From a virus: 22,151 nucleotides of DNA. How positions within the stretch are numbered: the stretch's first letter is position 1; each line of letters begins with the position of its first letter. The notes below the pieces were generated by a model. It searched no databases and was not told where the DNA came from. It saw only the letters and a list, made by a program, of their open reading frames with translations. Position numbers and translations under genes: made by a program. The stretch covers positions 1-22,151 of the IMG/VR virus record IMGVR_UViG_3300010885_075749; one strand, given 5' to 3'. Shown piece after piece: positions 2,739 to 22,151 of the stretch.

Positions 2739-5700
2739 ATGGGTGATTCATATAGAATACGAACCGAGTTAGGTATCAACAAAACAATTACGGTACAATT
2801 GGACCAAGAATTTGAATTCTTGGAAATCCTTTCATTGAAACTTCAACAAGAAGATATCTACATCAGAAGTTGTGCAGACTATGGAGTTGTTGTTGGTAGA
2901 GTTACGGCAAATAATGGATATGGTATTCCAAATGCAAGGGTTTCTATTTTTATACCTATTGAATCTGTAGACGAATCTAACCCAATTATTTCAAGTATAT
3001 ATCCATACAAATCACCAACCGATAAAAACGAAGATGGTTATCGATATAATTTGTTAACGTATGAGAAATCATATTCAACACACGCAGCAACAGGAACATT
3101 ACCATCAAGAACAGATGTATTAACAGGTGCAACCGCTGTAGAAATTTTTGACAAGTATTATAAGTATACCTCAAAAACAAATGAAAGTGGTGACTATATG
3201 ATTATGGGAGTACCTTTAGGGTTTCAAACAATGGTCATGGATGTTGATTTATCTGATATTGGTGAGTTTTCATTAACACCACAAGATTTAGTAAGAGTAG
3301 GTAGAGCCACACCTGAACAAGTTGCGGGTAACAAGTTTAGAACATCAACTGATTTAGATTCACTACCTCAAATTTTAACATTACAAAAAAGTGTTGAAAT
3401 TGCACCTTTATGGGGAGACCCTGCAATTTGTGATATCAAAATTAATAGAGTAGATTTTGATTTAAGAGATGATGCAAGTATAGATATTCAACCAACATCA
3501 GTTTTTATGGGGTCAATGTTTTCGACTCCTGATAGTTTTAGACTTAGAGGTTCAACTTATTTTGGCGGTGTTCAAATTTCAAGAGGTTGTAAACCAAGAG
3601 ATAACATGGGTAATCTATGTGAACTTCAAGCAGGACCAGGACAAATCCTTTCAATTAGACAGACAATTCAACAAGACTCAGACGGAAATCCAATATTAGA
3701 ACAATATGACCTTGAACAATCTGGAAATATCATTGATGGAGATGGAACATGGTTAACAGAGATTCCTATGAATTTGGATTATGTTGTAACAAATGAGTTT
3801 GGTGAAAAAACACTATCCAATGACCCAACTATTGGTATTCCAACAAAGGGTAAATATAGATTTAAAATAAAATGGCAACAACCAAATACTATAACACAAC
3901 AAGTTAGAAGACCATATTATTTGGTACCAAATATTAGAGAATATGGTTGGACAAATTCGTCTAATCTTGCAGCTAATGACCCAAACCAAAATCCAAATAT
4001 TACTGCAACAAATAAAAAAAATCTAAAAGGTTCATATTATTTTGGATTAGCGTGGTCTGGATATACAAATGTTCAGGCGGCAATTGATTGCGAAGATACG
4101 TTCTATCAATTTGACTTTAATAAAGTATATACCGTTTCAAGTTTGATAGATGAATATAAAAATGGTAGAGATAGAGGAAGATTTATTGGTATTAAGGAAA
4201 TTGATAGTCAAGATTGTTCTTCTACTGTAAATAAATTTCCTACTAATGATGGAGTTAGAAACTTTGATTTGTTCTATTTTATATTTTCAATAATATTTCA
4301 AATAATTCAATTAATAGGAATACCAATTTTAGTTATTTTTCATTTTATTGCCTACTTATGGAATAATTTTGCGGCACCATTTTTAGTTTTGATTATTGCA
4401 TTTTTCTTCAGAGAATCAATTCAAAACTTCATCGGAGCTGCGGTAAGTTTTCCAGCTCTTGGATTAATTGGACCATTTATTGTAAAAGGAATTATAAATT
4501 TAATAATAGCAATTGTTTTGGGAATTAACTTCAGGAAAATTACCAAATATACATTTGGTAGAATTAAATTGGCAATGATAACTTATCCTGATTGTCAGGC
4601 TTGTGATTGTACTCCTGAATCAACCAGGGAAGGTGATGGAGGTACTCCTACTACTTTACTTACACAATATAGTAACAGCGGATTATACGTAGAAAAATTA
4701 GCAGCAAATGCAACCCCAATTAAAGGTTGGGATGATGAAGACCCTCAAGTTGGAGCTGCAGCTGTAAGTCAGGCTATGGGTACTAATTCAACAGACAAAC
4801 CAAACAATTATATATATAAATCAACGAAGTCAACTGAACTTCGACTACCATCCAACAATAGAAAGTTTTTTAGTGCTACGCCTTATCTGACTATGGGGGA
4901 AAGAATAAATGTATTCAATCTAAGAAAAAAATATTTTGACAATTTTAATAGAATAAGTGTTTCTTTTGATACTAATTCAAATAATGGGATTAGACATTTC
5001 GACAACACCTTGACAATAACAATGCAAGAAAAATTGGAAAGCGGAACACTTTTAACTTTCGTATCTCCAACATCCACAAGAGACCTTAATTATTTATGGT
5101 CTGCGGCAACAGTTGATTTTGGTGTTGTTACAGGTATTAGTGGAGCTACCTTATTATCTACACAGGGGACTGTAAACGTACAATATGCAAATCCTGCAAA
5201 TCAACTACAAAACCTGTCACAAACTTATTTTTTAACAACTGGCTCAACTGAAATAAATTATAAATTCCCATCAGACATTGAATATTATCAGGTAGTTACC
5301 GCACTAACGATTTCTCAGGCAGCAAAAATATGGAATACATCAAACCAAAGTTTGTTTCCTGGAATTTTGGAATCATCAACATATGTGATATGGAATGACA
5401 GAAATGGAATAGGACATTGGGGAGACGCTAGTTTTAATGGACCTTACAGTACCAAAGATTATTTTGATGGGTTTGAAAGTCAATATATTACTATTATTCA
5501 AAGAGGGGTTGACCCGTATTCTCCAAAGTATACAAATAAGTATGGTATTGGTAGGATTTTAGGGTTGTCTGATACTGAAAGTTTGACGGTGACAGCACAG
5601 ACAAGACTCAACATTCCAATTCAAAAACTAAGTTCGAGTAGTTTATCTGTACAACCATTCAGTTCCCAACCAGAAATTTTTTATCCTTCATACTTCTTTA

Positions 5701-7586
5701 GTGCGGGTGACCAATTTTCAGGGTTTACAACGTCTGGTGTTGGTTATTATAGTGCGTTTGATGCTAATTATGTTGCGGCTAAAAGAACACCAGCAACCAT
5801 AACAACAATTAATAGTGCTAGAGGTGTAATTACTTTTGGAAGTAATGCTACATACTATCCTACTGTTCAGCCAGGATTCTATGATTATTCTGAAGATTTA
5901 TCGGGAGGTGCTTATTATTTTAGTAGAATAGGAAATAGACCAGGTAATACAACCATAAATTATACGTCGCCAAGTCTATTACCAACATTCACTGCCAACC
6001 CAATGTCAATAAGCTCTAAAACATTAAACGTATTAAGAACGGACAGACTTCCATCTTCAGATTATTTAGATGGTAGTAGTTGGACCAACAATGCAGCTTT
6101 GTTACAACAAAATGTTGGATTTAGTATGTATGTGTTAAATACAGATACCGAAGATTTTACATCAGAAAGATTTGGTAATGGTGCAACAACATATACACCA
6201 GATATTGAAGGACAAGTTGCAGCAACCAACGTAATATCAACTGTTGGGGATTGTACTAAAATGGTTGGGTTAACTTGTTATAGTGGTAATGGCGTTAATT
6301 TTGGTGTTAAAGAAGGTTGTCAAGGAACTGATACTATAGAAAATGGGTGTTATATTTTAATGGAGCAACCATTAAAAACATTAGGAAAAGACTTAAAATC
6401 TTTTGGAGAGTGGGGATACAGATTTAGATTTTTCTATGGATTATGTAGAGGGGTTTTGTCTCAAATATTTGTAAACAATTGGGTCAATGGAGCGCTATAT
6501 GCATTTCCAATACAGGTTGATAGATATTTTGATAAACAAAACAAACCACTACCTCCTGAATTTTGTAAAGATTTAGTATATTTTGATTCAGATACAAATA
6601 ACTTTTATTTTAGAAGTAGTCCTTACTTAAGTGGTTCAACACAACCTTTTATTGGATATCCAACACAAGGATTACTACAACCTGTTAATAGTAGAAATTT
6701 ATTATTCCCAACAACAATTGTTAATTTAGGGATTAAAGATGCCTTCTATCAGGAAATTATTTTTGACCCATCTGCTAGAGGATACATCTTAAATAAATTG
6801 AGTGACACAAGTTATTCTGACCCATCGGATTTGGTTAACTTATTTGTCATTTCGAGAATTACTGATGAGAGTTTCTTACAACAACTTTTTGCAGGGTTTA
6901 ACAAAAATAATTCTTTGGACCAATTATTTTCAAGATATGAAAGAAGAGTTGATGGTGATTTGGCACAACTTTTATCAATTAATTCTGAAGAAGGAGTTAT
7001 ACCTTTTTCACCTGAGTTTTATGCATCAACTGGAGGGACAACTGACCCTGTGGTTATTATAGCACCTGGAGGGGATTTAAGATATCCAACGATGGGTGTA
7101 TTCTTTTCGTCAACAACAGAAGATTTACAATTTAAAGATTTTATGACACCAGGTAGAATAGATTTCAGACCTACCAATAATGCAAATGCAATCACGTATC
7201 CATATGGCATTAAGTCACAACAAGTACCGTTTTATCAGTGGGGGTTGGAAAAAAACAACACTATTTTTGGAACAGAGATGAATAACTGGAAAACAAATTA
7301 CTCAACAGATGAGAACGCTGCTGGCATTTTTTCAAGATACATTCAATCTTTAGATAGAACCAGTATACCAAGACCATCTTATTTTATACCATCTAATACT
7401 TCTGTATCAGACACTTTTGCTAGAGGTTACATTTTTAATGTAACTGATGGTGGTCTTTATTCAATTGATGGTGGAACATACCCAAATCGATTTTTAGTTG
7501 GAGCTCCATACCATTTTTATTTTGGACTAATAAAGGGTGCAACTGCCTTAGATAAATTCAAAACAAAATATTCTTTTAGTGAATAA
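2739..7586 (+). CDS. Giant baseplate-region structural protein with a multi-span hydrophobic block
   Basis: A 1615-residue protein and the largest gene here. I do not recognise a named family, although it resembles long structural proteins of environmental phages. Residues of about 45-70 (GVVVGRVTANNGYGIPNARV) and 143-175 (TSKTNESGDYMIMGVPLG) look like the two halves of a carboxypeptidase-regulatory-like Ig fold split by an insertion of about 75 residues. Residues 509-597 are strongly hydrophobic, with three or four possible membrane spans separated by short polar turns. C619, C622 and C624 (YPDCQACDC) follow directly. The rest is Ser/Thr/Asn/Tyr-rich beta-type sequence with further Cys near residues 1170-1240. 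It lies between the gp6-like gene and smaller structural genes. A wedge-attached or membrane-contacting role is inferred from position and the hydrophobic block. A tape measure is less likely, because most of the protein lacks long helices. Confidence 0.75.
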   Translation: MGDSYRIRTELGINKTITVQLDQEFEFLEILSLKLQQEDIYIRSCADYGVVVGRVTANNGYGIPNARVSIFIPIESVDESNPIISSIYPYKSPTDKNEDGYRYNLLTYEKSYSTHAATGTLPSRTDVLTGATAVEIFDKYYKYTSKTNESGDYMIMGVPLGFQTMVMDVDLSDIGEFSLTPQDLVRVGRATPEQVAGNKFRTSTDLDSLPQILTLQKSVEIAPLWGDPAICDIKINRVDFDLRDDASIDIQPTSVFMGSMFSTPDSFRLRGSTYFGGVQISRGCKPRDNMGNLCELQAGPGQILSIRQTIQQDSDGNPILEQYDLEQSGNIIDGDGTWLTEIPMNLDYVVTNEFGEKTLSNDPTIGIPTKGKYRFKIKWQQPNTITQQVRRPYYLVPNIREYGWTNSSNLAANDPNQNPNITATNKKNLKGSYYFGLAWSGYTNVQAAIDCEDTFYQFDFNKVYTVSSLIDEYKNGRDRGRFIGIKEIDSQDCSSTVNKFPTNDGVRNFDLFYFIFSIIFQIIQLIGIPILVIFHFIAYLWNNFAAPFLVLIIAFFFRESIQNFIGAAVSFPALGLIGPFIVKGIINLIIAIVLGINFRKITKYTFGRIKLAMITYPDCQACDCTPESTREGDGGTPTTLLTQYSNSGLYVEKLAANATPIKGWDDEDPQVGAAAVSQAMGTNSTDKPNNYIYKSTKSTELRLPSNNRKFFSATPYLTMGERINVFNLRKKYFDNFNRISVSFDTNSNNGIRHFDNTLTITMQEKLESGTLLTFVSPTSTRDLNYLWSAATVDFGVVTGISGATLLSTQGTVNVQYANPANQLQNLSQTYFLTTGSTEINYKFPSDIEYYQVVTALTISQAAKIWNTSNQSLFPGILESSTYVIWNDRNGIGHWGDASFNGPYSTKDYFDGFESQYITIIQRGVDPYSPKYTNKYGIGRILGLSDTESLTVTAQTRLNIPIQKLSSSSLSVQPFSSQPEIFYPSYFFSAGDQFSGFTTSGVGYYSAFDANYVAAKRTPATITTINSARGVITFGSNATYYPTVQPGFYDYSEDLSGGAYYFSRIGNRPGNTTINYTSPSLLPTFTANPMSISSKTLNVLRTDRLPSSDYLDGSSWTNNAALLQQNVGFSMYVLNTDTEDFTSERFGNGATTYTPDIEGQVAATNVISTVGDCTKMVGLTCYSGNGVNFGVKEGCQGTDTIENGCYILMEQPLKTLGKDLKSFGEWGYRFRFFYGLCRGVLSQIFVNNWVNGALYAFPIQVDRYFDKQNKPLPPEFCKDLVYFDSDTNNFYFRSSPYLSGSTQPFIGYPTQGLLQPVNSRNLLFPTTIVNLGIKDAFYQEIIFDPSARGYILNKLSDTSYSDPSDLVNLFVISRITDESFLQQLFAGFNKNNSLDQLFSRYERRVDGDLAQLLSINSEEGVIPFSPEFYASTGGTTDPVVIIAPGGDLRYPTMGVFFSSTTEDLQFKDFMTPGRIDFRPTNNANAITYPYGIKSQQVPFYQWGLEKNNTIFGTEMNNWKTNYSTDENAAGIFSRYIQSLDRTSIPRPSYFIPSNTSVSDTFARGYIFNVTDGGLYSIDGGTYPNRFLVGAPYHFYFGLIKGATALDKFKTKYSFSE

Positions 7587-9273
7587 GTATACAATCATAC
7601 CAAGTCAATTAAAGTATCAAGGCGCACCAAGTACTGACCAAGAAATTGAAGTATCTTTGGAACAACAGAGTCAACTACTTACCGAATATGATAGAAACTC
7701 AACTGTTAGTTTAGCTCAATTATTTGATGACGAAAGACAATCTTGTAGTATTTTTAGACCAACTTTCAAGGTAACATATCTGTATTCAAACACTTATACG
7801 GGTACAACAACTTATTTACCATTTCAATACAATTTATACTACACAACACCTGAAGAGTCTTACGCTAGTGGTAATTGGAGAGGATTTCCTCAGTATTATG
7901 AATTTGATTTTTTTAGACCGAACATTACTGACCAACATTTTGTTTATAAAGCCAAAAGCGCATATACGTATAATTGGACATACTATTTAACATATCCCCA
8001 CAGAAATAACTACGATAAAAAATTATCGTTTGCACTGAATAATAGCAGTCTTACTTGGACGGCATCAACAGGAATACCATTTTCAATTAATAAAAGCAGT
8101 TTGAATGGTAATGGTATAGTATCCTTTGAATGTATTGCACCTCATGGATTAACTATTGGAGAATCTGTTGAACTTTCATTCAAATATAACAATCAATCAA
8201 CGTTTCAAGTATATTCTTTGGGTAATGGAAAAACAGGAAGCGATGTTTTTATATTCAGTATATTCAATTTAGGATTTACAGGTACTACTTTTGCTGACGG
8301 AAAAACAGGAACATTTAGAAGAGTTATTAATGCGGAAAACCCAACAGAGACAACATCAAAATATTATATCAGAGAGCATAAAGTAATAACAAATGTTGAA
8401 GATTTAATTGTTACTAAAGCTGGATTTGAAAGAAATGTTTTTACGGAAGAAAAAAAATTTGAGTTTAGTTCAATAACTCCTAATAATGTTTCAAGAATTT
8501 CACAAAAAACAAGTAGTAATGCTTATAATATGACATTGAATTATGATTTAGATATTAAAAATTTAAATGATAATCAACAGAGACCAATTACAGAATTATA
8601 TTTAACAATTGTGAACAAAGGTTATTCAGGATATTTTAATCAACCATATAATGGGGTGGGACTTAAACAAGGTTGGGGTTTTAATTTAACTAGTTCGGTA
8701 AACTCTTGGTGGGACTTAACAAATATAAACTCTAATACAAACATACCCGTTTCTTCTTATACTCAAACAAATGGTGCGACAAAAACATTTTATTATAATT
8801 CAGACCTTAAATATGGAGATGTTATAGATGGTGATTTTTGTGAGTGGAATGACTATGAACAAAAAGAAAGAGTTATATCCAAATACTATCAAAAGATAAA
8901 GTATAATCAAAATGTTTTTCAAACGACAAGTGTATCAGATACAAATTCGCCAGGATATTATTATGAGCCACATAACCCAATGACAATTAGAGTGTTTTCT
9001 GATTACGTTGAAACAGGAGATTTAGCCTTCATCGACCAAGTTCCAAGATGGTCATATTTTTCAAACTCAGACCAACAGTTCAGATGGAGAGATTTATATA
9101 CATATGGATTTTTAGATAATTTGGGAAGAGGAGTTGATTATCCATTTTTCAATTCAGCACAATACCCATACCAAGATATCATTTTCAGACTAATACCTGA
9201 AGGAATAAACTACAATAACTACCTTCTTGGTGTTAATGTACCTATTAAACCATTATTTGATGAGTGTCAATAA
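7579..9273 (+). CDS. Structural protein of unknown family (564 residues)
   Basis: The frame opens after a stop at 7549-7551, and the only good start is GTG at 7579, which overlaps the end of the 1615-residue gene by eight bases. That overlap suggests translational coupling. The protein is rich in Tyr, Phe, Asn, Ser and Thr with few helical stretches, as expected for a beta-rich virion protein. The N-terminal 60 residues are Gln/Glu/Ser-rich (SLEQQSQLLTEYDRNS). There is no signal peptide, membrane segment or catalytic motif. It has only a few Cys (for example in QSCSIF and the C-terminal DECQ), unlike the fibre proteins downstream. By position it is a baseplate or tail decoration protein, but no specific function can be given. 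Confidence 0.7.
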   Translation: MNKYTIIPSQLKYQGAPSTDQEIEVSLEQQSQLLTEYDRNSTVSLAQLFDDERQSCSIFRPTFKVTYLYSNTYTGTTTYLPFQYNLYYTTPEESYASGNWRGFPQYYEFDFFRPNITDQHFVYKAKSAYTYNWTYYLTYPHRNNYDKKLSFALNNSSLTWTASTGIPFSINKSSLNGNGIVSFECIAPHGLTIGESVELSFKYNNQSTFQVYSLGNGKTGSDVFIFSIFNLGFTGTTFADGKTGTFRRVINAENPTETTSKYYIREHKVITNVEDLIVTKAGFERNVFTEEKKFEFSSITPNNVSRISQKTSSNAYNMTLNYDLDIKNLNDNQQRPITELYLTIVNKGYSGYFNQPYNGVGLKQGWGFNLTSSVNSWWDLTNINSNTNIPVSSYTQTNGATKTFYYNSDLKYGDVIDGDFCEWNDYEQKERVISKYYQKIKYNQNVFQTTSVSDTNSPGYYYEPHNPMTIRVFSDYVETGDLAFIDQVPRWSYFSNSDQQFRWRDLYTYGFLDNLGRGVDYPFFNSAQYPYQDIIFRLIPEGINYNNYLLGVNVPIKPLFDECQ

Positions 9274-10078
9274 ATACGAAATAAGACAAGATAATTTTAC
9301 TGACAAATCATTAGTAATACCAGTTGAATTGAAGTGGGATTACTTAGGTATTGATGAAAGTATTGACGAATACGAAGTCGAGGTAATTGATGAAGTGTTG
9401 GGATTTGGTAGAGATTTTGAAGTAGACAGATTTCCAAATGAACCATTTAGTGGTACTTCAAAAATTACTGAAATTGCATATGATTTTTATTTTTATTCAG
9501 GAGGTTCATTAAGTACTGAAAGTAATTGGAGAATGGATTATAGAGGAGAAGGATTTAGTACTCAAGATGTTTATTATTATAATAATAATTTTTCAAATTC
9601 GTTTTTCAAACTTGACCTATATGATAGTCCTGATGAAAAGAAACAGACAAATTATATTACGATAATTATACCAACTCAGCAAGGGTTGAAGATGGATGCA
9701 ATTATGCAAAGAACACCAGTCAAAATTAAAAAGCCTCAATTTATTTTAGATTATGTTGGAGATAAAGAAGGATTTTTCATTTATTGGTTAAAGAAAAGAA
9801 CGTTTTTGGATATTAATACGTTTTATATGACAGCTAAATTTTATAATGCAGAGACTGGTTCATTTACTAAAATGATGAATATGCCACAGTCTAGTTTAGG
9901 TAATAATCCATATTCATTCGATAATTTAAGTTATTTCTATTATAAAGTTAATTTGGATTATGACAAACACACATATCAAATTTTTAATATAAATCCAAAT
10001 CAAAGTATATATCGTTTGAATGGAGAAAGAGCGGGTACTCCAATACCCATAAAATGGTACGAATATGTTAACCCATAA
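9260..10078 (+). CDS. Structural protein of unknown family (272 residues)
   Basis: I place the start at the ATG at 9260 (MSVNKYEIRQDNF), which overlaps the preceding stop by 14 bases. A longer reading from TTG at 9227 would add 11 residues in a stretch that codes for the previous protein in another frame, and it is less likely. The protein has an acidic N-terminal third (ESIDEYEVEVIDEV) and is rich in Tyr, Phe and Asn, with alternating hydrophobic residues typical of beta structure. It has no Cys, no membrane segment and no known motif. It sits between two structural genes with almost no spacing, so a virion role is inferred from context only. Confidence 0.7.
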   Translation: MSVNKYEIRQDNFTDKSLVIPVELKWDYLGIDESIDEYEVEVIDEVLGFGRDFEVDRFPNEPFSGTSKITEIAYDFYFYSGGSLSTESNWRMDYRGEGFSTQDVYYYNNNFSNSFFKLDLYDSPDEKKQTNYITIIIPTQQGLKMDAIMQRTPVKIKKPQFILDYVGDKEGFFIYWLKKRTFLDINTFYMTAKFYNAETGSFTKMMNMPQSSLGNNPYSFDNLSYFYYKVNLDYDKHTYQIFNINPNQSIYRLNGERAGTPIPIKWYEYVNP

Positions 10079-11191: not shown

Positions 11192-12100
11192 ATGGCTATA
11201 GGTTCATATGGCACAATAAGACCAAGTGATGTTTCACCAGCAGATGTTGAAATAATCATGAATTATACACCAACAAGAGATGTCACAGATGATTTTGTTT
11301 TAACTAAACTTGATTCTCAAACGGTATTGAGACCGTATTTTAATAATACTGAAACAGGCGGAAACGCTGGTGTTGAAGTCTTAGGTGGGTTATATAATTT
11401 AACATTACCCGCACAACAATTTAATGCTCTTGGAATTTATACTTTATATTTGAGACCTGCTCAGATAAGAACAGTAATTACAGATTGTGGTGTTTTAAAT
11501 GCGCTTCCTAATGTTAAGGGTATTATCATTGATATCACAAATGTACCTGTACAATTTCAAAATAAATTTGTTCCTCAAGGGTTGGTTGGATTCAGAATAG
11601 AATACTTAAACTCGGACGGCTCAAAAATACCAAATTTCTTTAGAGTTGTTACATCATGTTTCTTTTGTGAACCAGTTGTAACTAATGAAGTTAATACAAC
11701 ACAAAAGTCTATTAGATATAGATATGTTGATGGAAATGCTAATTTGATGTTTCTTACTTTATCACCATCATCGTCACCAACAAACAAACCAAACGCAACA
11801 CCATTTATTGGACAGCCTGACCAAAGTATTATAATTTCAAATACTTACTTCAATCCAGTTACAATTGAAATTGATATGGTTGAGTATGATATTTCTTCTC
11901 TTGCAATTGCACTTTACGGTAATCAAACTAAGTCAATTGATGATGGTATCTACACAATCTACGATTCGGCTAATAACATATACAGACAATACAACTTATA
12001 TGAAATTAGAGACCAATTTAATGCATTGTTGTATGAGGTTAGACAAGGTAGAGGAAATAATATTGATTTCAGTAAAAACTTTGCAAACATAACAACTTAA
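11192..12100 (+). CDS. Structural protein of unknown family (302 residues)
   Basis: I do not recognise a family. The N-terminus (MAIGSYGTIRPSDVSPADVEI) is a short polar arm, followed by beta-rich sequence. A CxxC pair lies in TSCFFCEP near residue 155. A Ser/Pro-rich linker (SPSSSPTNKPNATP) separates the N-terminal two thirds from a C-terminal part with helix-forming sequence (YEIRDQFNALLYEVRQGRG). The stop TAA (12098-12100) shares its last base with the ATG of the next gene, so translation of the 996-residue protein is probably coupled to it. It is likely a virion protein that acts with its neighbour; a specific role cannot be given. Confidence 0.7.
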   Translation: MAIGSYGTIRPSDVSPADVEIIMNYTPTRDVTDDFVLTKLDSQTVLRPYFNNTETGGNAGVEVLGGLYNLTLPAQQFNALGIYTLYLRPAQIRTVITDCGVLNALPNVKGIIIDITNVPVQFQNKFVPQGLVGFRIEYLNSDGSKIPNFFRVVTSCFFCEPVVTNEVNTTQKSIRYRYVDGNANLMFLTLSPSSSPTNKPNATPFIGQPDQSIIISNTYFNPVTIEIDMVEYDISSLAIALYGNQTKSIDDGIYTIYDSANNIYRQYNLYEIRDQFNALLYEVRQGRGNNIDFSKNFANITT

Positions 12101-15090
12101 TGGCAACATCAAGAACGAAATATTTTTACCCACCAAGACCTGGTAATGGTGCTGGTACATTCTCAGACAACATTGTAGGTTTACAAACCGTTGATGGGGG
12201 AGGATTTACCCAAGGTAATTTTGAATTTACAACATCTGTAACTGAAAAAGTTAACAGAAAATTTAATGTAGGAGCCTTTTCGGAGCCTATAACACTTGAT
12301 GCTTTAGGTATTGAAGATTTAATTGAGAGTAGAAGAATTCAAGCAACACAATTTAGAGTTTATCCAAATTATGATGTTTCTCAAGTATTGAACTTTTCAA
12401 TGTATGGGTCACTCGCAAAAAGATTTCAAGTTTCAGTAACAAAAATTATTAACTATTTTCCTGCGTCTTTGGATATTGTTTTTAATACCCCTGATTACTT
12501 AACAGGTGCAACAGCTGTTAATATACAATATGATTCGGTGTTAAATGAAACATATTTTGAGGTTAATGTTGATAGAATTGTTAATCCATTTGGTATCGAT
12601 TATTCGGTTAGTGCATCAACAAACTTAACATTAAGAGAATTAACAGTATCTCCGTATAGAAATCTTTATGATACGTCATTAGATTATTGTGTTAGTATTA
12701 ATGATGATATTTTCAAAGTAGTGTCGTTTAAACCGTCAGAGTCTTTGAATTATGGATATTTGGCATTTTATGTTTCAGGAGCGCCATTTGGGATTTCTGG
12801 AACTACAAGCCCATGGGACATTTATGAAAACTTTGAAATAAGACCAAATGATTTTATTGTTGACAAAGTATTCAATGAAAGTTTTGATGAAATTGAAAAA
12901 TTCTTGTTGAATAGACTTGTTGTTCCTGAATATACTGCGGCATTCCAAGTACCACAACAAAATCTTGATGGACAATTCTATACTGATTATCAACACGTAA
13001 CATGGCCTAAGGACGGTAATTGGAACTTGGATATTAGGTCTTTTAAATTTGATGATTACTTACAACAATTACAAGACATTGCGGTTAATTTGGATTCATT
13101 CAAGACAAACTTAATTTCCAGATTTTTGGTAAGTGGTTCATTGAAAGAGTTTGATACATTGGGTAGAAAAGTTGATAAAATATTTCAAATCTATGGTAGA
13201 AGTTTTGACCAAATAAAACAATTTATTGATGGTTTGGCTTATATGGATTCTGTTAATTACAATCCATCTAACGACATTCCTTCACAATTACTTGTAAACT
13301 TGGCACAAACATTGGGATGGACATCTAATTTTTCTCCAATAACAGACGAGAATTTTTTAGATTCAATATTTGGAAATACAACAACACCAAATTACCCTGG
13401 TTATGCTAGAGCTTTAACACCAACAGAAATTAATTACGGATTTTATAGAAATTTAATTTTAAATGCCGCTTATCTTTTTAAATCTAAAGGAACAAGAAGG
13501 TCTATTGAGTTTATGTTAAGATTGATTGGTGCTCCTGAATCATTAATTGAATATAATGAACACATTTATTTAGCTGACCAAAGAATTAATCTCGACCAAT
13601 TTTATACTCAGTGGACACAAATTTCAGGAGGTACATATGTTGACCAAGTACCAGCATATTCAAATGATACATTTAAAGTTAAAGGACAATTGTTTACTGC
13701 GTATACAACAAACTCAACATATGAAACTATCAATATTAGATTGGTAGATTATCCTATGGACGTTGAAGGTTATCCAAAAGCACCACTTGACACAGAAACA
13801 TATTTCTTCCAAATTGGTTCAGGTTGGTACGAAACAACACCACAACACAGAAGCCCTGACGCGGTTCAAATTACAGGAAGAGTATATACAGGACAAAACT
13901 ATGACATACAAACTCAATTACAACCCTTTACATATGGTCAAACTTATCTTGATAGATTTAGGGATTTTCCATACATGACAGAAGGATTTAAATTAAGAAG
14001 AATAGTTGACAACAATAAAAGTTGGTTAAAAAATGATGACAAAATAAGAGTATCAACTCAAGGTAACTACAATGCATATTATTTTGTTGATAATGATAAG
14101 TTAGTTTTGAATGTTAAAAATGTTGAAATATTTTTAAATCCAGCACAAGGTTTAGTTTATGATGTTTGGACACAATCAAGAAAATATGACTATCCAATAC
14201 CTGAAACAGGATTAACAGTAAATTATCCAGTACCTGGCGGAGTAGACTCAACGTTTGTAAATCCTGAGCCAAAGAAAAAGACATTTTTTGAATTTTCTCA
14301 AACATTTTGGGAGAATATGATTAACACAAGAAATAGACAATATATAACTGATGGTAAAACAGGAGGATATCCAACGCTACAATCAATATTTTGGAAATAT
14401 CTTGAACAAGAACAGACTATTGGAATACCAAACAACAAATACACTTATCAAAAATTAATTGATTATGTTGTTGGTATTGGTCCATATTGGATTAAGTTGG
14501 TAGAACAAATGGTTCCTGCAACAACAATATGGAATGGAGGAGTAAAATATGAAAATTCAATTTTTCAAAAACAAAAGTTTGTTTATAGAAGACAAAGAGG
14601 TTGCCAGTTTATACCAGTCCCTGTTGACCCTTGTTATATCATATCAAATATTTTTGATTATACGTGTTCGACTGAGTATACAGATTTTTCAATATATCCT
14701 TGGTTAAACGGTGATGTGACAGTTTCCAATTTTAGTTCAATATTAAACAATAGAGTTAATAATTTATTGGAATCTGAAGGGGTTTCAATAACTCAATGTG
14801 TTTTAAGTTCAATCGAATCTAAATGGTATGTTGATTTAAGAGTTGGAAATGATATATTAATTCAAGAACAATTTTACACAGGATACGGTAATACAGATGT
14901 ACCAACTAACAGACTCTGGAGAAGCTCTTTAATAAGTTTTCTACCAATGTTATATGATTTTGGTTTTACTTATTTCCTTAATGGTAATGTGTTAACAATA
15001 ACAAGTTTAACTTGTGAGCCTCGTAACTTAAATGAAACATTAAGTTTAAACGTTGGAATAAATATAGATATAAATTGTAATAATAACTAA
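12100..15090 (+). CDS. Large baseplate protein with a P2 tail protein I-like region
   Basis: A 996-residue protein. Residues of about 368-407 (FDQIKQFIDGL, then QLLVNLAQTLGW) and 448-495 (FYRNLILNAAYLFKSKGT, RRSIEFMLRLIGAPE) resemble the conserved helical core of P2 gpI, whose 'K.KGT...I...L.L.G' pattern is typical. P2 gpI is the equivalent of T4 gp7 in the wedge. The N-terminal 350 residues and the C-terminal half are beta-rich additions, so the protein is far longer than gpI. Residues of about 900-960 resemble the C-terminal region of the next protein (see findings); W940 lies in NRLWRSSLISFL. The gene is joined to both neighbours by one-base TAATG overlaps. With the gp25- and gp6-like proteins it would complete the wedge trio. 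The assignment to I/gp7 is moderate; the structural role is firm. Confidence 0.75.
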   Translation: MATSRTKYFYPPRPGNGAGTFSDNIVGLQTVDGGGFTQGNFEFTTSVTEKVNRKFNVGAFSEPITLDALGIEDLIESRRIQATQFRVYPNYDVSQVLNFSMYGSLAKRFQVSVTKIINYFPASLDIVFNTPDYLTGATAVNIQYDSVLNETYFEVNVDRIVNPFGIDYSVSASTNLTLRELTVSPYRNLYDTSLDYCVSINDDIFKVVSFKPSESLNYGYLAFYVSGAPFGISGTTSPWDIYENFEIRPNDFIVDKVFNESFDEIEKFLLNRLVVPEYTAAFQVPQQNLDGQFYTDYQHVTWPKDGNWNLDIRSFKFDDYLQQLQDIAVNLDSFKTNLISRFLVSGSLKEFDTLGRKVDKIFQIYGRSFDQIKQFIDGLAYMDSVNYNPSNDIPSQLLVNLAQTLGWTSNFSPITDENFLDSIFGNTTTPNYPGYARALTPTEINYGFYRNLILNAAYLFKSKGTRRSIEFMLRLIGAPESLIEYNEHIYLADQRINLDQFYTQWTQISGGTYVDQVPAYSNDTFKVKGQLFTAYTTNSTYETINIRLVDYPMDVEGYPKAPLDTETYFFQIGSGWYETTPQHRSPDAVQITGRVYTGQNYDIQTQLQPFTYGQTYLDRFRDFPYMTEGFKLRRIVDNNKSWLKNDDKIRVSTQGNYNAYYFVDNDKLVLNVKNVEIFLNPAQGLVYDVWTQSRKYDYPIPETGLTVNYPVPGGVDSTFVNPEPKKKTFFEFSQTFWENMINTRNRQYITDGKTGGYPTLQSIFWKYLEQEQTIGIPNNKYTYQKLIDYVVGIGPYWIKLVEQMVPATTIWNGGVKYENSIFQKQKFVYRRQRGCQFIPVPVDPCYIISNIFDYTCSTEYTDFSIYPWLNGDVTVSNFSSILNNRVNNLLESEGVSITQCVLSSIESKWYVDLRVGNDILIQEQFYTGYGNTDVPTNRLWRSSLISFLPMLYDFGFTYFLNGNVLTITSLTCEPRNLNETLSLNVGINIDINCNNN

Positions 15091-17222
15091 TGGCAACATT
15101 CCAATATTTTGTATCAATAACGGGGGACTGTTCAAATGTAGGTGCTGGCGCAATATTATTTACTCCATCAGGAGGAACACCACCCTATACTGTAGAATGG
15201 CAAACACCAAATTTAGGTACAGACCAAGCAGTGTTAAGTTCATATAGAAATTTGTTACAACCAAATACTTATGTTCTTCGCGTAAATGATTCTTCAGTTC
15301 CAACAAACCAAGAATTCTTTGTTAACATTCCTGTTTCAGATGGAATATGTTGTGATATATTAAGTGTCTCAAACACAACTTGTTCTTTGAATAATGGTGG
15401 TGTTACAGGTACAACAACTTCAGATTATTCATCAACTAACTTATTTTTATTTTTTTCTGATAACACATATATTACATCTGCGGTTACAAATGAAGCACAA
15501 TTTATATTTTCAAATTTAACGGCTGGGACTTATTATACATTGGCTCAAGATTTAGGTGGATGTACAGGAAGAAGTGAATGTTTTATAGTTGAAGATTCAG
15601 GTCCTTTTGATTTTGGACTTTACGTGGTACCAAACTCAAGTTGTGGGGGAACACCAATAGGTAAAATATTTGTTACAGGACAAACAGGTCTTTCACCTTA
15701 TAGTTATCTTTGGAGTAATGGACAAACAGGAAGTACTATTACAGGATTAACTGCTGGAGGATATTCAGTTACAGTAACAGATTCTTCAGGATGTGAAGTT
15801 ACAAAATCAGGAGTTATTACAAATGTATCACAGCTTGGATTTGGTGATTTTACAGTAGCTCAGCCAACATGTTTTTCAAATGATGGTGCAATTACTTTAA
15901 GAATAACGGGTGGAACTGCTCCATACTATTATTCGGCATCAACAGGAGATGTCTTAATATCGTATAGTGACACTTTTTCACTTTCAGGATTATCTGCAGG
16001 AAATTATTTGTTCAATGTAACAGATGCCGCATTTTGTTTTATAAATGTAGGTACTTCTTTAATTACACCTGGAGGAATTGCTTCAGTTAGTGTTTCTGCA
16101 TCTGGTTCAACATGTTCAAGTGTTGATGGTCAAATATTAATATCAGTTGTTGGCGGAACCACACCATATGTTTATACACTTATAAAACCAAATGGTGATA
16201 CAACCAATATTAGTTCAAGCCAAACATCTAAACTGTTTAGTAATCTTAGTACAGGAACCTATATGGTTGGAGTTAGAGACCAAACAGGTTGTTCATATAT
16301 GGGAGAAGAAACTCTCGTAGCTGAAAACAAATTTACAATTTCTACTTCAGTTGTTGGAACATCATGTGCACAAAATAATGGTACTGTTACAATTACAAAA
16401 ACTACAGGAGGAACAGAGCCTTTTGATTATTCTCTAGACGGATTGTATAATGTAATCGATACAACATTAAGTGCTGTAACATTCACAAATGTATCACCAG
16501 GACAACACACAATAACAGTAACAGATGCCACAGGTTGTACCCAAACAACACAAGTATATGTAAATAATAGTGTACAACTTAATTATACATTATATTCAAC
16601 TTCTTGTGGTACAGGAACTGATGGAACAATAACAGCATTTATATCTTCAGGAACACCTCCGTTCACATTCAATTGGTCTTCTAACATATCAGGTAATCCT
16701 CAACAAATACAGATTACAGGATTAACCGCAGGAACATATAGTCTAACAGTTACGGATGCAAATGGATGTTCTTTAAGAAGGTCTACAGTAATTGACTGTA
16801 ATACATCTTACGTTTCGTATCAACTATATGTTATGGGTGCAGAAACTTTCCAAATTCAAACACCAGCCAAATATGGGTTACTTCAAATGTTGAATGAAGG
16901 ATTTATTGATTTAACATCAGGTAATACAAATTGTGATTTAATATCAGCAACTTTTAGTGCTAAAGTTTCTGTACAACCTTTAGGTACTGTGGTTAGTCAA
17001 CAATTCTTTGTTTCAAATTCTTTATCAACGGCACCAAGTGATAATCTTTGGTATAATGCAATTTCATCTTTACTAAGAAGTATTTCAGGCGTTGGTAATG
17101 TAACAATTGACCCATTAAATAACCAAATAACAATTGAAACTAGTAGAAATAATAATAGTTTAAATGGACAAGAGATTATTATTGAACTAGTTATTGTTTA
17201 CGATACAATGTGTTTAACATGA
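15090..17222 (+). CDS. Tail fibre/adhesin with seven SprB-like repeats
   Basis: A 710-residue protein. Residues 1-575 are a chain of about seven 75-85-residue repeats of SprB type. Each has a GGT.PY.Y core (for example GGTAPYYY near 274), a 'LTAGTYSLTVTD' strand pair and a closing DANGC-type turn. Cys occur in pairs, one early and one in the closing turn of each repeat: C98-C158, C185-C235, C261-C316, C342-C401, C426-C483 and C506-C560. In Bacteroidota such repeats build the gliding adhesin SprB and other surface proteins. Here the context makes the protein a probable host-contact fibre. There is no signal peptide, as expected for a virion protein. Residues of about 595-665 form a different C-terminal module that resembles the end of the preceding 996-residue protein and may be the attachment point. 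The gene overlaps the previous one by one base and the next by four (ATGA). Confidence 0.8.
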   Translation: MATFQYFVSITGDCSNVGAGAILFTPSGGTPPYTVEWQTPNLGTDQAVLSSYRNLLQPNTYVLRVNDSSVPTNQEFFVNIPVSDGICCDILSVSNTTCSLNNGGVTGTTTSDYSSTNLFLFFSDNTYITSAVTNEAQFIFSNLTAGTYYTLAQDLGGCTGRSECFIVEDSGPFDFGLYVVPNSSCGGTPIGKIFVTGQTGLSPYSYLWSNGQTGSTITGLTAGGYSVTVTDSSGCEVTKSGVITNVSQLGFGDFTVAQPTCFSNDGAITLRITGGTAPYYYSASTGDVLISYSDTFSLSGLSAGNYLFNVTDAAFCFINVGTSLITPGGIASVSVSASGSTCSSVDGQILISVVGGTTPYVYTLIKPNGDTTNISSSQTSKLFSNLSTGTYMVGVRDQTGCSYMGEETLVAENKFTISTSVVGTSCAQNNGTVTITKTTGGTEPFDYSLDGLYNVIDTTLSAVTFTNVSPGQHTITVTDATGCTQTTQVYVNNSVQLNYTLYSTSCGTGTDGTITAFISSGTPPFTFNWSSNISGNPQQIQITGLTAGTYSLTVTDANGCSLRRSTVIDCNTSYVSYQLYVMGAETFQIQTPAKYGLLQMLNEGFIDLTSGNTNCDLISATFSAKVSVQPLGTVVSQQFFVSNSLSTAPSDNLWYNAISSLLRSISGVGNVTIDPLNNQITIETSRNNNSLNGQEIIIELVIVYDTMCLT

Positions 17223-17599
17223 CGCAGATAAGAATTGATATGATATCAGGGGGTACTTACCCCGTTACAGTTAGTATTGCGGATGTTTATGGTAACAACC
17301 TGACAAACATCGCAACAATAACAACAGGACCTGTTCCACCAACACAAAGTTTTAATTCAGGTAACACAACTATTCCTGCAATATTTAATACTGCACCTCA
17401 AATCATGTTATTATTAACAGATGCAAATGGTTGTCAAGTATTTAAAATTCTTGATTGTACATTTGGATGTGCTTTTGAAATTACAGTTAATCTTGTTTCT
17501 TGTGTGGTTGATATTACAATTCAAGAAACAAATTGTTCGTTCAGTTTAAATGTTGAAGATTCTTCTTGTGTATGTTCAATTTATACAATTGAGATATAA
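17219..17599 (+). CDS. Small Cys-rich beta protein (126 residues)
   Basis: The start is taken at the ATG at 17219, which forms an ATGA overlap with the stop of the SprB-like gene. A GTG at 17210 would add three residues. The first 60 residues are Thr/Ile/Val-rich and resemble part of a SprB-like strand pair. The segment LLLTDANGCQVFKILDC matches the repeat's closing turn. The last 60 residues contain seven Cys with no CxxC zinc-finger layout. It looks like a fibre cap, a linker or a shortened repeat protein that serves the gene before it. No enzyme motif, signal peptide or membrane segment is visible. An 80-base AT-rich gap follows. Confidence 0.65.
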   Translation: MTQIRIDMISGGTYPVTVSIADVYGNNLTNIATITTGPVPPTQSFNSGNTTIPAIFNTAPQIMLLLTDANGCQVFKILDCTFGCAFEITVNLVSCVVDITIQETNCSFSLNVEDSSCVCSIYTIEI

Positions 17600-17679: not shown

Positions 17680-19737
17680 ATGTCAACTTATTCAATAATT
17701 GTAACCAATCTTGCTCCAGGGTGTAATAATGAGGTCGCTCAACAACTAACAGTTTCTGGATGTTCATCTTATATTGTAAGATTAGCGTCAACTTCCAATG
17801 CAATTGGACCTTTTAATGTTTATATTGACTCAATATTAACAACTCCAATATATTCCGCACAAACAAGAACGGAAATGTTTAATGGGGTTGTTGTAGAATT
17901 TCTATGTACACCAACACCAACTCCACCGTCATCAACACCTACTCAAACACCTTCAAATAGTGCAACACCTACAATCACACCTTCACCAACAGAAACTTTA
18001 CCTACAACTCCAACACAAACACAAACTCCAAGTCAAACACAAACTCCAAGTCAAACACAAACTCAAACACCAACTAATACCGCAACACAAACTCCAACAT
18101 CAAGTGAGACATCAACGCCTACATCTACACAAACGCCAACTCCTTCGGTTACGGCAACAAATACAACAACGCCAACATCTACACAAACACCAACAACAAC
18201 ATCAACACCAACTCAAACACCAACAACAACACCTACAACAACTTTAACATCAACGCCAGGAGCAACTCCGCCATCAACACCAACTAATACACAAACATCT
18301 ACAGCAACACCAACTGAAACACCAACTCAGACCGCTACTGCAACTCAAACTCCAACACAAACTGCTACACAGACAGCAACTGTTACTCCAACAACTACAC
18401 CAACAACTACTCCAACTCTTTCTTCAACTCCAACTGAAACACCTACAAATACACCAAGTGTAACTGCAACAGCAACTGAAACATCAACTGCGACTCCAAC
18501 GCCGACACCAACAATAACATCAACACCAACTGAAACTCCTACACCAACAATAACATCAACACCAACTGAAACGCCAACTCAGACTGCAACACCAAGTGTG
18601 ACGCCAAGTTCAACTGAGACACCAACACCTACTCCAACTACGACATTAACAAGTACACCTGGGGAAACTCCACCATCAACACCAACACAAACTTCAACTG
18701 AAACACCAACATCAACTGTAACACCAACAAATACTGAAACGCCAACCGCAACACCAACACAGACACCAACTCAAACTGCAACACAAACTCCAACAAGTAG
18801 TTTAACACCTACACCAACGGAGACACAAACACCTACAGTAACGCAAACACCAACTAATACTGCAACCCCAACAGCAACTAATACTGCAACCCCAACAACA
18901 ACTACAACATTAACAGCAACTAACACACCAACAAGTAGTGTAACACCTACACCTACAGAAACGCCTACACAGACTCCAACTAATACACAAACACAAACTC
19001 CAACTAACACAGAAACGCCTACACCTACAGCAACTCCAACTAATACACAAACACAAACATCTACTCCTACAGAAACTCCTACACAAACACCAACTAATAC
19101 ACAAACACAAACACCAACTAATACACAAACTCCTACAACATCACCTACTCCAACACCAACTAACCAACCATTATTCGCTTACTTGTTTATGGACCAAAAT
19201 GATGGTTCAGGAGCAAGGGCTAATTTAAGTGCTTGGATGGTGTCCCAAGGAAGTGCTTGGAAAGGATTTAATACTGTACCATCAGCACCTTCAACTGTAC
19301 AAGCAACGTTTGACGCACAAATGAATGCATACTTAAGTTACAGTGGATGGGGAGTTTATGAACCTGCAATATTAACGGCACCAATATCAACAACAACAGG
19401 AGGAAATGATGCTTATGGTAATCCTATTACCGCATACCAATTCCAAACTGTCCAAGTTCCAGCGGCTTATTTCTCAGCAACAAGTTGGGTTACAATATTT
19501 GTTTCAACAGGAGCAACAAACGGTCAAAAGTATTCAAATGTTAAATCAGGAACAGCGTCTGGTAGTATGACAAATAAAACAATGAATTCAACATATAATA
19601 GTTTAATAATTAACTACTCAGGAAGTACAAACATACCTGCTGGAACTTATAGAATGTATTCAACATATAACTCGGCAGCATTCCAATTACCAGTTGGATT
19701 ATTACCGCATTATTTCCAAGGTTCAACACTTGTGTAA
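17680..19737 (+). CDS. Virion protein with a 418-residue Thr/Pro mucin-like stalk
   Basis: A 685-residue protein in three parts. Residues 1-76 are a small head domain ([15 protein letters not shown] at the start, LC at 75-76) with three Cys. Residues 77-494 are a Thr/Pro-rich tract made almost only of Thr, Pro, Ser, Gln, Asn, Glu, Ala and Val. It has no Lys, Arg, Asp, aromatic residue or Cys, and only two Gly. Residues 495-685 form a Gly/Ser/Tyr-rich globular domain ([14 protein letters not shown] at its start). This head-stalk-tip layout is that of a fibre or spacer protein with an extended stalk and a possible receptor-binding tip. Thr/Ser density resembles O-glycosylated mucin stalks, but the Bacteroidota O-glycosylation site needs an Asp before Ser/Thr and the tract has none. 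The gene has its own upstream TATTTATT element. Confidence 0.75.
17908..19161 (+). repeat. Thr/Pro-coding low-complexity repeat tract
   Basis: An irregular repeat of ACA/ACT and CCA/CCT codons that codes for the TPT, TQT, TNT and TET triplets of the stalk. Locally exact units occur: 18 bases twice at 18021-18056, and 36 bases twice at 18505-18576 with two differences. A longer-range repeat is marked by the only two Gly codons (18259 and 18661), each within TTTLTSTPG(A/E)TPPSTPT and 402 bases apart. Open frames in this tract on other frames or the other strand are by-products of the repeat. Confidence 0.85.
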
Positions 19738-19782: not shown

Positions 19783-22151
19783 ATGAGTTTCAGTTATAAA
19801 AATCCAATATCGGCATCAATTATTGCAGAGCCAATTTCAGTAACATTAGATAGTGACCAGGGTACCAGTTTTAGTGTCGGTACTGTTGGTGGATATATGG
19901 AAGTTTGGAATTTATCCGATTTAAATTGGGTTATTCCATCAAGCACATATGCATCAGGAGGACAGGTATTATATTCTGGAAATACTATTCCGATTAGTTT
20001 CATTTATGGTGGACCACCAGAACCTGTTATTAGTCAGTTAAACTTATATAGTGATGGTATTTCTTCAGGAAGAAGAAGATTAGGAATGCAGGTATTCGTT
20101 CAAGAAACTCAGGAAGTTTACCAATATACCATTCCAAATTATGCTTCTTTATGGAATATTGCTCAAATTGATGGTTCAATTTACGATTTGGAGTTTGGAT
20201 ATCAAGTAATTACAGATAGTGCTGGTGGTAGAGCTTTGGTTAATGCTTGGACAGGGTCAACAATTGAAGGACAAAGTGGTACGACAAGAGAAAATGCTAG
20301 ATGGAGAATTTTCCATGGAGATGATGTTCAAATCACTGGAGGTACTTACTATTCAGCAACTACTACTTTAGATTTATTTAATAGTACAGGAGGAACAATA
20401 TCAATCACAGGATTTACAGGTACTGTAACAGGTGGAACATATAATAGCGGTTCTTCAACCTTAACTTTAAACAATAGTGATGGTACTGAGGTATCAATTA
20501 CAGGTATAACTTCAGGCTCAGCCTTATCTGTTGGAGACGGTGGAACACCAGTTACTAATGTTTCAGGAATTACATTCAGTGGAGCATCAGTTATAGATGA
20601 TGGTGGCGGAAACATTACAGTAGTAATAACAGGAAATACGGGTTCAAATGGTTCTTCAGGAACTAGTGGAACTTCAGGTGTTAGTGGTATTGACGGTACT
20701 TCAGGTACAAATGGTACTTCGGGTTCATCAGGAACTTCAGGTAGCGATGGTTCAAGTGGCTCATCAGGAACATCAGGTTCAGATGGCTCAAGTGGCTCAT
20801 CAGGAACTTCAGGTTCTGATGGCAGCTCTGGTTCTAGTGGAACTTCAGGTTCAGACGGTTCAAGTGGTTCATCAGGAACTTCAGGTACATCAGGAATAAG
20901 CGGTGTTAATGGTACAGATGGTAGCTCAGGTTCTTCAGGAACAAGTGGTTCTGATGGTAGCTCAGGTTCTAGTGGAACTTCAGGTTCAGACGGTAGCTCA
21001 GGTTCTTCAGGAACAAGTGGTTCTGATGGCTCAAGTGGCTCATCAGGAACAAGTGGTTCAGACGGTAGCTCAGGTTCTTCAGGAACAAGTGGTTCAGATG
21101 GCTCAAGTGGCTCATCAGGAACATCAGGTTCAGACGGTAACTCTGGTTCTTCAGGAACAAGTGGTTCTGATGGCTCAAGTGGCTCATCAGGAACATCTGG
21201 TTCTAATGGTAGCTCAGGTTCTTCAGGAACATCTGGTTCAGATGGCTCAAGTGGCTCATCAGGAACTTCAGGTAGCGATGGTAGCTCAGGTTCTTCAGGA
21301 ACAAGTGGTACAGATGGTAATTCAGGCTCTAGTGGAACTTCAGGTTCTGATGGTAGTTCAGGTTCATCAGGAACAAGTGGTACAGATGGTAGTTCTGGTT
21401 CTTCAGGAACTTCAGGTACAGATGGTAGTTCAGGTTCTTCAGGAACTTCAGGTACAGATGGTAGCTCTGGTTCTTCAGGAACAAGTGGTACAGATGGTAG
21501 TTCAGGCTCTTCAGGAACAAGTGGTAGCTCAGGAACATCAGGAAGCTCTGGTACATCGGCCTTAATTTGTACACCATTTTTATCTGGAGATTATTATTTT
21601 CAATCGGTAGGACAACCCTATAACGGGCCTTCATATCCAAATATGGCATGGGGTCCTGGACAAACATTAAGTGTATATGCGCCTGATGATATTATAGAGT
21701 ATATGATAATTAGCGGTTATACCGCTTCAACAGGAGATTTGATTGCGGTTATTACATATTCTCAAAGTCCTAATTATAAAACACAGGCAGGAGTTACTCT
21801 TTGTCTTGTAGGTGCACAAGGTTCAAGTGGTTCTTCAGGTTCTTCAGGTTCTTCAGGTACAAGTGGTAGCTCTGGTTCATCTGGTTCTTCAGGAACTTCA
21901 GGTACAGATGGTAGCTCTGGTTCTAGTGGAACTTCAGGTACAGACGGTAGTTCAGGCTCTTCAGGAACAAGTGGTACGGATGGTAGTTCAGGTTCTTCAG
22001 GAACTTCAGGTACAGACGGTAGTTCAGGCTCTTCAGGAACAAGTGGTACGGATGGTAGTTCAGGCTCTTCAGGAACAAGTGGTACGGATGGTAGTTCAGG
22101 CTCTTCAGGAACAAGTGGTACGGATGGTAGTTCAGGCTCTTCAGGAACAAG
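19783..22151 (+). CDS. Collagen-like tail fibre protein (3' end beyond the window)
   Basis: The frame stays open from the ATG at 19783 to the window end (789 residues visible) and the gene is partial at its 3' end. Residues 1-180 are a globular N-terminal domain, the expected virion-attachment end. Residues 184-245 hold two units of about 31 residues that begin TGGTY, a beta-type repeat common in phage fibres. A VSGITFSG / DDGGGNITVVITG segment follows. Residues 284-592 are 103 uninterrupted Gly-X-Y triplets of the type GSDGSSGSSGTS with no proline. Residues 593-676 are a globular insert with two Cys (ICTPFLSG, TLCLVG) and several aromatics. A second Gly-X-Y tract starts at 677 and continues past the edge. 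Such triplets form trimeric collagen-like stalks in phage fibres. The receptor-binding tip is probably beyond the window. Confidence 0.8.
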   Translation, partial: MSFSYKNPISASIIAEPISVTLDSDQGTSFSVGTVGGYMEVWNLSDLNWVIPSSTYASGGQVLYSGNTIPISFIYGGPPEPVISQLNLYSDGISSGRRRLGMQVFVQETQEVYQYTIPNYASLWNIAQIDGSIYDLEFGYQVITDSAGGRALVNAWTGSTIEGQSGTTRENARWRIFHGDDVQITGGTYYSATTTLDLFNSTGGTISITGFTGTVTGGTYNSGSSTLTLNNSDGTEVSITGITSGSALSVGDGGTPVTNVSGITFSGASVIDDGGGNITVVITGNTGSNGSSGTSGTSGVSGIDGTSGTNGTSGSSGTSGSDGSSGSSGTSGSDGSSGSSGTSGSDGSSGSSGTSGSDGSSGSSGTSGTSGISGVNGTDGSSGSSGTSGSDGSSGSSGTSGSDGSSGSSGTSGSDGSSGSSGTSGSDGSSGSSGTSGSDGSSGSSGTSGSDGNSGSSGTSGSDGSSGSSGTSGSNGSSGSSGTSGSDGSSGSSGTSGSDGSSGSSGTSGTDGNSGSSGTSGSDGSSGSSGTSGTDGSSGSSGTSGTDGSSGSSGTSGTDGSSGSSGTSGTDGSSGSSGTSGSSGTSGSSGTSALICTPFLSGDYYFQSVGQPYNGPSYPNMAWGPGQTLSVYAPDDIIEYMIISGYTASTGDLIAVITYSQSPNYKTQAGVTLCLVGAQGSSGSSGSSGSSGTSGSSGSSGSSGTSGTDGSSGSSGTSGTDGSSGSSGTSGTDGSSGSSGTSGTDGSSGSSGTSGTDGSSGSSGTSGTDGSSGSSGTSGTDGSSGSSGT
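20632..21558 (+). repeat. First collagen-like Gly-X-Y repeat tract
   Basis: 927 bases that code for 103 perfect Gly-X-Y triplets, mostly GSS, GTS, GSD, GTD and GSN. The dominant unit is 36 bases (12 residues, GSDGSSGSSGTS) with synonymous variation between copies, which implies older expansion followed by drift. X is nearly always Ser or Thr, and Y is Ser, Asp or Asn. Proline is absent, so any triple helix cannot rely on hydroxyproline. Confidence 0.9.
21811..22151 (+). repeat. Second collagen-like tract ending in identical 36-base units
   Basis: Gly-X-Y coding resumes after the globular insert. At the end three 36-base units (22045-22080, 22081-22116 and 22117-22151) are identical, the last one base short because the window stops. 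Each codes for GTDGSSGSSGTS. Sequence identity, unlike the diverged first tract, indicates recent expansion or concerted exchange. Read-based assembly may have collapsed or ended in this array, so the copy number here is uncertain. Confidence 0.9.

Follow-up and report, generated by a model that had tools for sequence, protein, structure and literature searches.

A conserved SprB-repeat protein in the tail operon of a mostly uncultured phage family, most likely a tail-fibre spacer

Tail operon and phage host

The window, meaning the whole stretch of DNA that we analysed, is a 22,151-base IMG/VR virus fragment with a G+C content of 34%, and one long series of genes runs across it on the + strand, from a gp25-like gene through a J/gp6-like gene to a collagen-like protein. 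The gp25-like baseplate wedge protein (333–803, +) matches Pfam GPW_gp25 at 7.3e-11 and PHROG baseplate wedge at 4.7e-16, and the gp6/J-like baseplate wedge protein (809–2647, +) matches Pfam Baseplate_J at 6.3e-7 and PHROG baseplate wedge at 2.5e-23 and is 27% identical to the baseplate wedge protein of Flavobacterium phage immuto. Several large proteins without family matches lie between the J/gp6-like gene and the gene for a 996-aa tail protein (12100–15090, +), which itself gave no match in Pfam and PHROG searches. The idea that the 996-aa protein is P2 gpI-like was dropped, as no family search spoke for it.

Directly downstream is the gene for a 710-aa SprB-repeat protein (15090–17222, +; the open reading frame is as given in the preliminary description), whose start codon shares bases with the stop codon of the 996-aa gene (TAATG). 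It is followed by a 129-aa Cys-rich protein (17210–17599, +) that gave no match in a Pfam search but is conserved among relatives, with a tblastn match in 69 loci, a Thr-Pro-rich stalk protein with a conserved N-terminus and an exchangeable C-terminus (17680–19737, +), and a protein truncated at the contig end that its own sequence marks as a collagen-like fibre protein rich in Ser, Gly and Thr (19783–22151, +). The preliminary description had placed the repeat gene in a baseplate/fibre operon, and the gp25 and Baseplate_J matches upstream on the same strand bear this out. Pfam and PHROG searches found no fibre-specific domain in the SprB-repeat protein, and it is from the position of its gene that we infer it to be part of the virion.

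Two other places in the operon stood out. Within a 1615-aa ORF (2739–7586), residues 507–601 (4257–4541) are strongly hydrophobic and multi-span-like, and the stretch around them has a match in 123 of 160 related loci, with 59–95% identity in those examined. Such a region is unusual in a tail protein and might act on the host membrane. The gene for a protein of about 271 aa at 9265–10078 varies much more than the genes around it, being more than 80% covered in 38 of 115 matching loci with a median identity of 43%, in contrast to the gene at 11192–12100, which is 89% identical.

By J and terminase, the nearest cultured relatives are represented by immuto, at 25–27% identity, so we infer that the window phage likely has a Bacteroidota host. 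The J and terminase of Microcystis phage Mel-JY01, which was recorded from Microcystis, also resemble those of the window family and of immuto. By eye, the window genes are without clear Shine-Dalgarno sites. A search for the 996-aa protein in 399 Flavobacterium family-group and 395 phylum genomes gave no match and, having no positive control, is uninformative.

Seven repeats and their predicted fold

The Pfam SprB model (PF13573) matched the 710-aa protein with an E-value of 6e-25 and 87 bits, with six stretches over threshold. Run on the DNA, the model found six places, one of which (repeat 4) was alone above the curated Pfam cut-off of 28 bits. A host-only profile of 68 positions, made from 302 repeats that all come from Bacteroidota adhesin loci, matched the protein at 1.1e-85 overall and matched all seven domains. 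These host repeats were collected starting from a profile seeded with phage repeats, which brings in some selection, but the independent Pfam model is in agreement. The host-only profile matched 0 of 200 shuffles of the protein, found nothing at a meaningful level in the other reading frames of the window, and had no match in the examined tail regions of three related phages (immuto, Mel-JY01 and LR756508), from which the SprB protein is absent.

All seven repeats lie on the + strand. Repeat 1 (15102–15359; Cys 14 and 87) scored 28.5 bits with the host-only profile, and repeat 2 (15354–15572; Cys 98 and 158), which is divergent and was not found by Pfam, scored 17.5 bits (iE 0.0018) and was thereby detected, so that all seven are recognised. 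Scores were higher for repeat 3 (15615–15803; Cys 185 and 235; 56.8 bits), repeat 4 (15843–16046; Cys 261 and 316; 60.2 bits), repeat 5 (16086–16301; Cys 342 and 401; 49.3 bits), repeat 6 (16338–16547; Cys 426 and 483; 47.2 bits) and repeat 7 (16578–16778; Cys 506 and 560; 58.0 bits). In each domain one Cys lies close to the first strand and the other close to the last, and all 14 paired cysteines are kept in 98–100% of 51 distinct relatives; the pairs are probably oxidised, presumably after lysis. The repeats are on average about 31% identical to one another (range 19–42%), and this divergence indicates that no recent tandem duplication took place. Seven tandem SprB-like repeats with paired Cys had been proposed from the sequence alone, and Pfam, the host-only profile and the conserved cysteines agree on them; the refuting outcome named there, no significant profile match, did not occur.

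No export signal was seen in the 710-aa protein. Models of the T9SS sorting domain (CHU_C/TIGR04131) did not match it, and the same search was positive for an adhesin of Rufibacter roseus (L172) and for a protein of phage LR756502. The protein starts MATFQYFVSITGDCS, and hydropathy gave no hydrophobic segment that stands out as an N-terminal export signal, the maximum over 15 residues being 1.08 near the N-terminus.

An AlphaFold model built with 43 family members had a mean pLDDT of 82.9 and a pTM of 0.32, as expected of a flexible chain, and placed beta-domains as far as residue ~570, followed by a weak hinge (572–583) and an alpha/beta domain (586–709). This C-terminal domain is not of the SprB type (16812–17219, +; residues 571–710) and has a pLDDT of about 81–92 over residues 590–710. 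A PDB sequence search with the protein found nothing significant, and the best Foldseek matches in the PDB were segments of GhpA, the grappling-hook adhesin of Aureispira, at 1.2e-19 and below. TM-scores were low because the chains bend differently, so these matches support the type of domain and not the whole shape. By fold, the repeats are therefore adhesin-type; the alternative raised earlier, a fold of some other phage-specific Ig family, was not borne out.

The last ~130 aa of the 996-aa protein may resemble the C-terminal domain of the 710-aa protein, judging by weak scores. HHalign of the two C-termini scored 24.5, where 100 column shuffles gave no more than 21.6, with a weak pairwise E-value of 0.0025, and the full-length profile comparison was weak as well (E 0.037). 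The order beta-alpha-beta-beta-alpha-beta-beta-beta is common to both C-terminal models, the 996-aa model being poor (pLDDT 32) except for parts of its C-terminus, for which reason it was left out of the fold search. A shared C-terminal domain may be an assembly interface.

Conservation and origin of the array

Relatives were gathered by a viral-contig search with the neighbouring 996-aa protein, which gave 280 in one scan. In 78 of the best 80 of these, the next gene after that for the 996-aa protein encodes a SprB-repeat homologue, and the remaining two contigs end within about 150 bases, making it 78 of 78 where there is sufficient sequence. The location in the tail structural operon is kept across relatives, as is a length of about 710 aa in nearly all of them. 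The homologues are 58–68% identical to the window protein with array size, order and cysteines fixed, and conservation is even among the repeats (mean pairwise identity 58–73%), with no hypervariable repeat seen among the relatives. The phage family is large, mostly uncultured and aquatic, with a strictly conserved SprB-repeat protein.

Median identity to the window was 89% for J (in contigs that had been chosen by J), 89% for a 302-aa protein, 77% for the 996-aa protein, 63% for the SprB-repeat protein, 64% for the 129-aa protein, 64% for the stalk N-terminus and 52% for the stalk C-terminus, the last from 17 loci only. The N-terminal 80 aa of the stalk were found in 60 loci and the C-terminal 150 aa in 17, so the C-terminus is replaced in most. 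Together, these figures suggest that the SprB-repeat protein evolves like a structural part of the fibre and is less exchangeable than the distal end. In five relatives (L020, L029, L042, L043 and L047) the C-terminus of the 710-aa protein is fused to Thr-Pro stalks of 31–422 aa, and three of these extensions (L029, L042 and L047) run on past the stalk into non-repetitive sequence.

In a tree of 316 repeats, the seven positions form seven separate clades across eight phages with support of 0.93–1.0, while the deeper branching, based on 64–68 columns, is poorly determined. Since repeats of different phages group by position in the array, the seven-repeat array is ancient and fixed, and we conclude from the tree that it was already complete in the ancestor of the phage family. 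One origin for all repeats of the phage family was not rejected (AU p 0.62).

The preliminary description took the repeats to have been captured from the host, and proposed a phylogeny of them against host adhesins as a check. In the sample used, the phage position clades contain no host repeats, and capture as stated is not supported, given these clades, the ~31% identity between repeats and the lack of a close host adhesin; the long array matches to host adhesins have about 23–34% identity. For six of the seven repeats the host profile did score above the profile of the other phage positions, the one point in favour of recent capture, but the host profile was built from a larger and more diverse set of sequences than the phage-position profile. 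With position-specific clades family-wide, no near host relative found and a single phage origin not rejected, we regard recent capture from a host adhesin gene as highly improbable. The host-profile advantage would fit common ancestry with Bacteroidota repeats, giving neither direction nor date, and descent from Bacteroidota repeats long ago is plausible. Capture from Bacteroidota does not follow from a SprB match by itself, as Hoc-like proteins of Klebsiella phages also match the model.

Known counterparts and role of the protein

The best fold match in a viral library was UniProt A0A6J5LD72 (BFVD model), a 714-aa 'SprB repeat [uncultured Caudovirales phage]' protein that is 35% identical to the window protein and matches its whole chain (Foldseek E 7.8e-62). 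It is very likely of the same protein family, with a SprB label that comes from automatic annotation. In the literature searched we found no published analysis of this family and no description of SprB repeats in phage tails. CrAss-like phages carry tail-associated tandem arrays of BACON, a domain whose other known occurrences are in surface proteins of Bacteroidota, and in cluster 1 the domains at each array position group in a separate clade (PMC6949934). The window array is likewise a tail-associated tandem array of a Bacteroidota surface module with position-specific clades, though its domain is SprB and not BACON, and whereas crAss-like phages come from the gut, the window family comes mostly from other metagenomes and the window phage is a T4-like myophage (gp25, J, terminase). 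Considering the UniProt label and the BACON parallel, the array is not a wholly new kind: the role as a tandem tail array is already known, and SprB is a new repeat family in that role.

Among bacterial proteins, GhpA of Aureispira, a member of the Bacteroidota (PDB 9flp, 9flw, 9fly), is also a chain of related beta-domains, at 14–19% identity, but its numbering goes beyond 5000 residues, as compared to 710 aa and no T9SS signal in the phage protein. Bacteroidota SprB-repeat adhesins such as that of R. roseus have the same repeat, and their profile matches all seven domains, but they are thousands of residues long and the R. roseus protein ends in a T9SS type B sorting domain. In Klebsiella Slopekvirus phages, Hoc-like proteins with a head-decoration or whisker annotation have domains that also pass the SprB cut-off (35.9 bits), but the score of canonical Ig domains in them is higher (72.8 bits).

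Other SprB-like proteins were seen in phages. A canonical SprB query found more than 100 phage records, mostly enterobacterial; in Klebsiella phage vB_KpnM_05F (L171:3668-4729) a Hoc-like/whisker protein is above the SprB cut-off and has stronger Ig_3 matches. Three relatives (L247:1211-3700, L246:1798-3573 and L245:1868-4186) encode a further protein at some distance from the first locus, built of SprB-like domains and Thr-Pro linkers in alternation, and in L247 the gene after it ends like immuto tail proteins. The 642-kb uncultured phage LR756502.1 (L007:18684-23696) encodes a 1670-aa protein with 13 SprB repeats, PKD, a signal-peptide-like start and a T9SS type B domain (TIGR04131 2.4e-13, CHU_C 5.2e-14), with its gene lying between those for a topoisomerase, a NIF-type phosphatase, SpoVR and a glutamate-synthase-like protein; this is apparently a host-type adhesin encoded by the phage and exported by T9SS.

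We think that the 710-aa protein is probably a structural spacer or adaptor of the tail fibre, and a spacer is a more likely explanation than a recent theft from the host. Seven disulphide-stabilised SprB-type beta-domains would form a semi-rigid chain with the alpha/beta domain at its end, and the coupled operon would yield it together with the baseplate and fibre/stalk proteins. Most likely the chain links the baseplate region to the distal Thr-Pro stalk, which has a tip that is swapped among phages. The stalk fusions in relatives would put the C-terminus of the 710-aa protein next to the distal stalk, and which end faces the baseplate is suggested only by these fusions. The fixed array and cysteines, the 78 of 78 synteny, the operon with gp25 and J, the stalk fusions and the lack of export signals all speak for a spacer, as do the even conservation of the repeats beside a stalk C-terminus that is mostly replaced and the likeness of the C-terminal domain to that of the 996-aa protein. 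The strict seven-repeat architecture favours a mechanical function and sets right the notion of recent capture.

The PDB matches are mostly adhesion molecules, which makes a binding role possible and counts against a pure spacer. The main rival to the spacer accordingly assigns receptor binding or environmental adhesion to the SprB repeats themselves, which would give weak multivalent attachment to surface polysaccharide, mucus-like polymers or SprB-type filaments before irreversible adsorption. Both fold and profile match Bacteroidota adhesins, the gliding/T9SS adhesins SprB and RemA have been discussed as possible phage receptors (PMC13288928; PMC7345892), and in other systems phages use tandem Ig-like arrays for adhesion (PMC13370021). 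On the other hand, the repeats are conserved and constant in number, where a recognition surface would be expected to vary, and a separate exchangeable distal segment lies downstream, so we find this reading possible but rather doubtful. A more specific version, in which the virion chain contacts SprB-type/T9SS filaments of the host like-with-like and moving gliding adhesins are the first docking site, seems quite improbable.

A decoration or accessory virion protein resembling the Hoc-like head Ig proteins, with its gene merely among the tail genes, is also unlikely. PHROG matches to Hoc-like head decoration (1.4e-8) and a virion structural protein (3.6e-7), both weak, point that way, as do the SprB-model matches in Klebsiella phage Hoc-like/whisker proteins, but the PHROG matches are to generic beta-domains, and the invariant position between baseplate and fibre genes, the TAATG coupling and the stalk fusions are against it. 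Phage LR756502 sets a precedent for a phage-encoded true SprB-like adhesin that is shown on the infected host cell, yet the 710-aa protein sits in a tail operon and is without a T9SS sorting domain or a signal-peptide-like start; the missing export signals already largely refute this reading, which we consider barely credible here.

With a fibre spacer as the favoured role, SprB joins BACON on the short list of Bacteroidota surface modules found in phage-tail tandem arrays, in a phage family that extends over hundreds of metagenomic contigs. As gliding/T9SS adhesins are suspected phage receptors, the chain poses a testable choice between binding of the host surface and spacing of the fibre.
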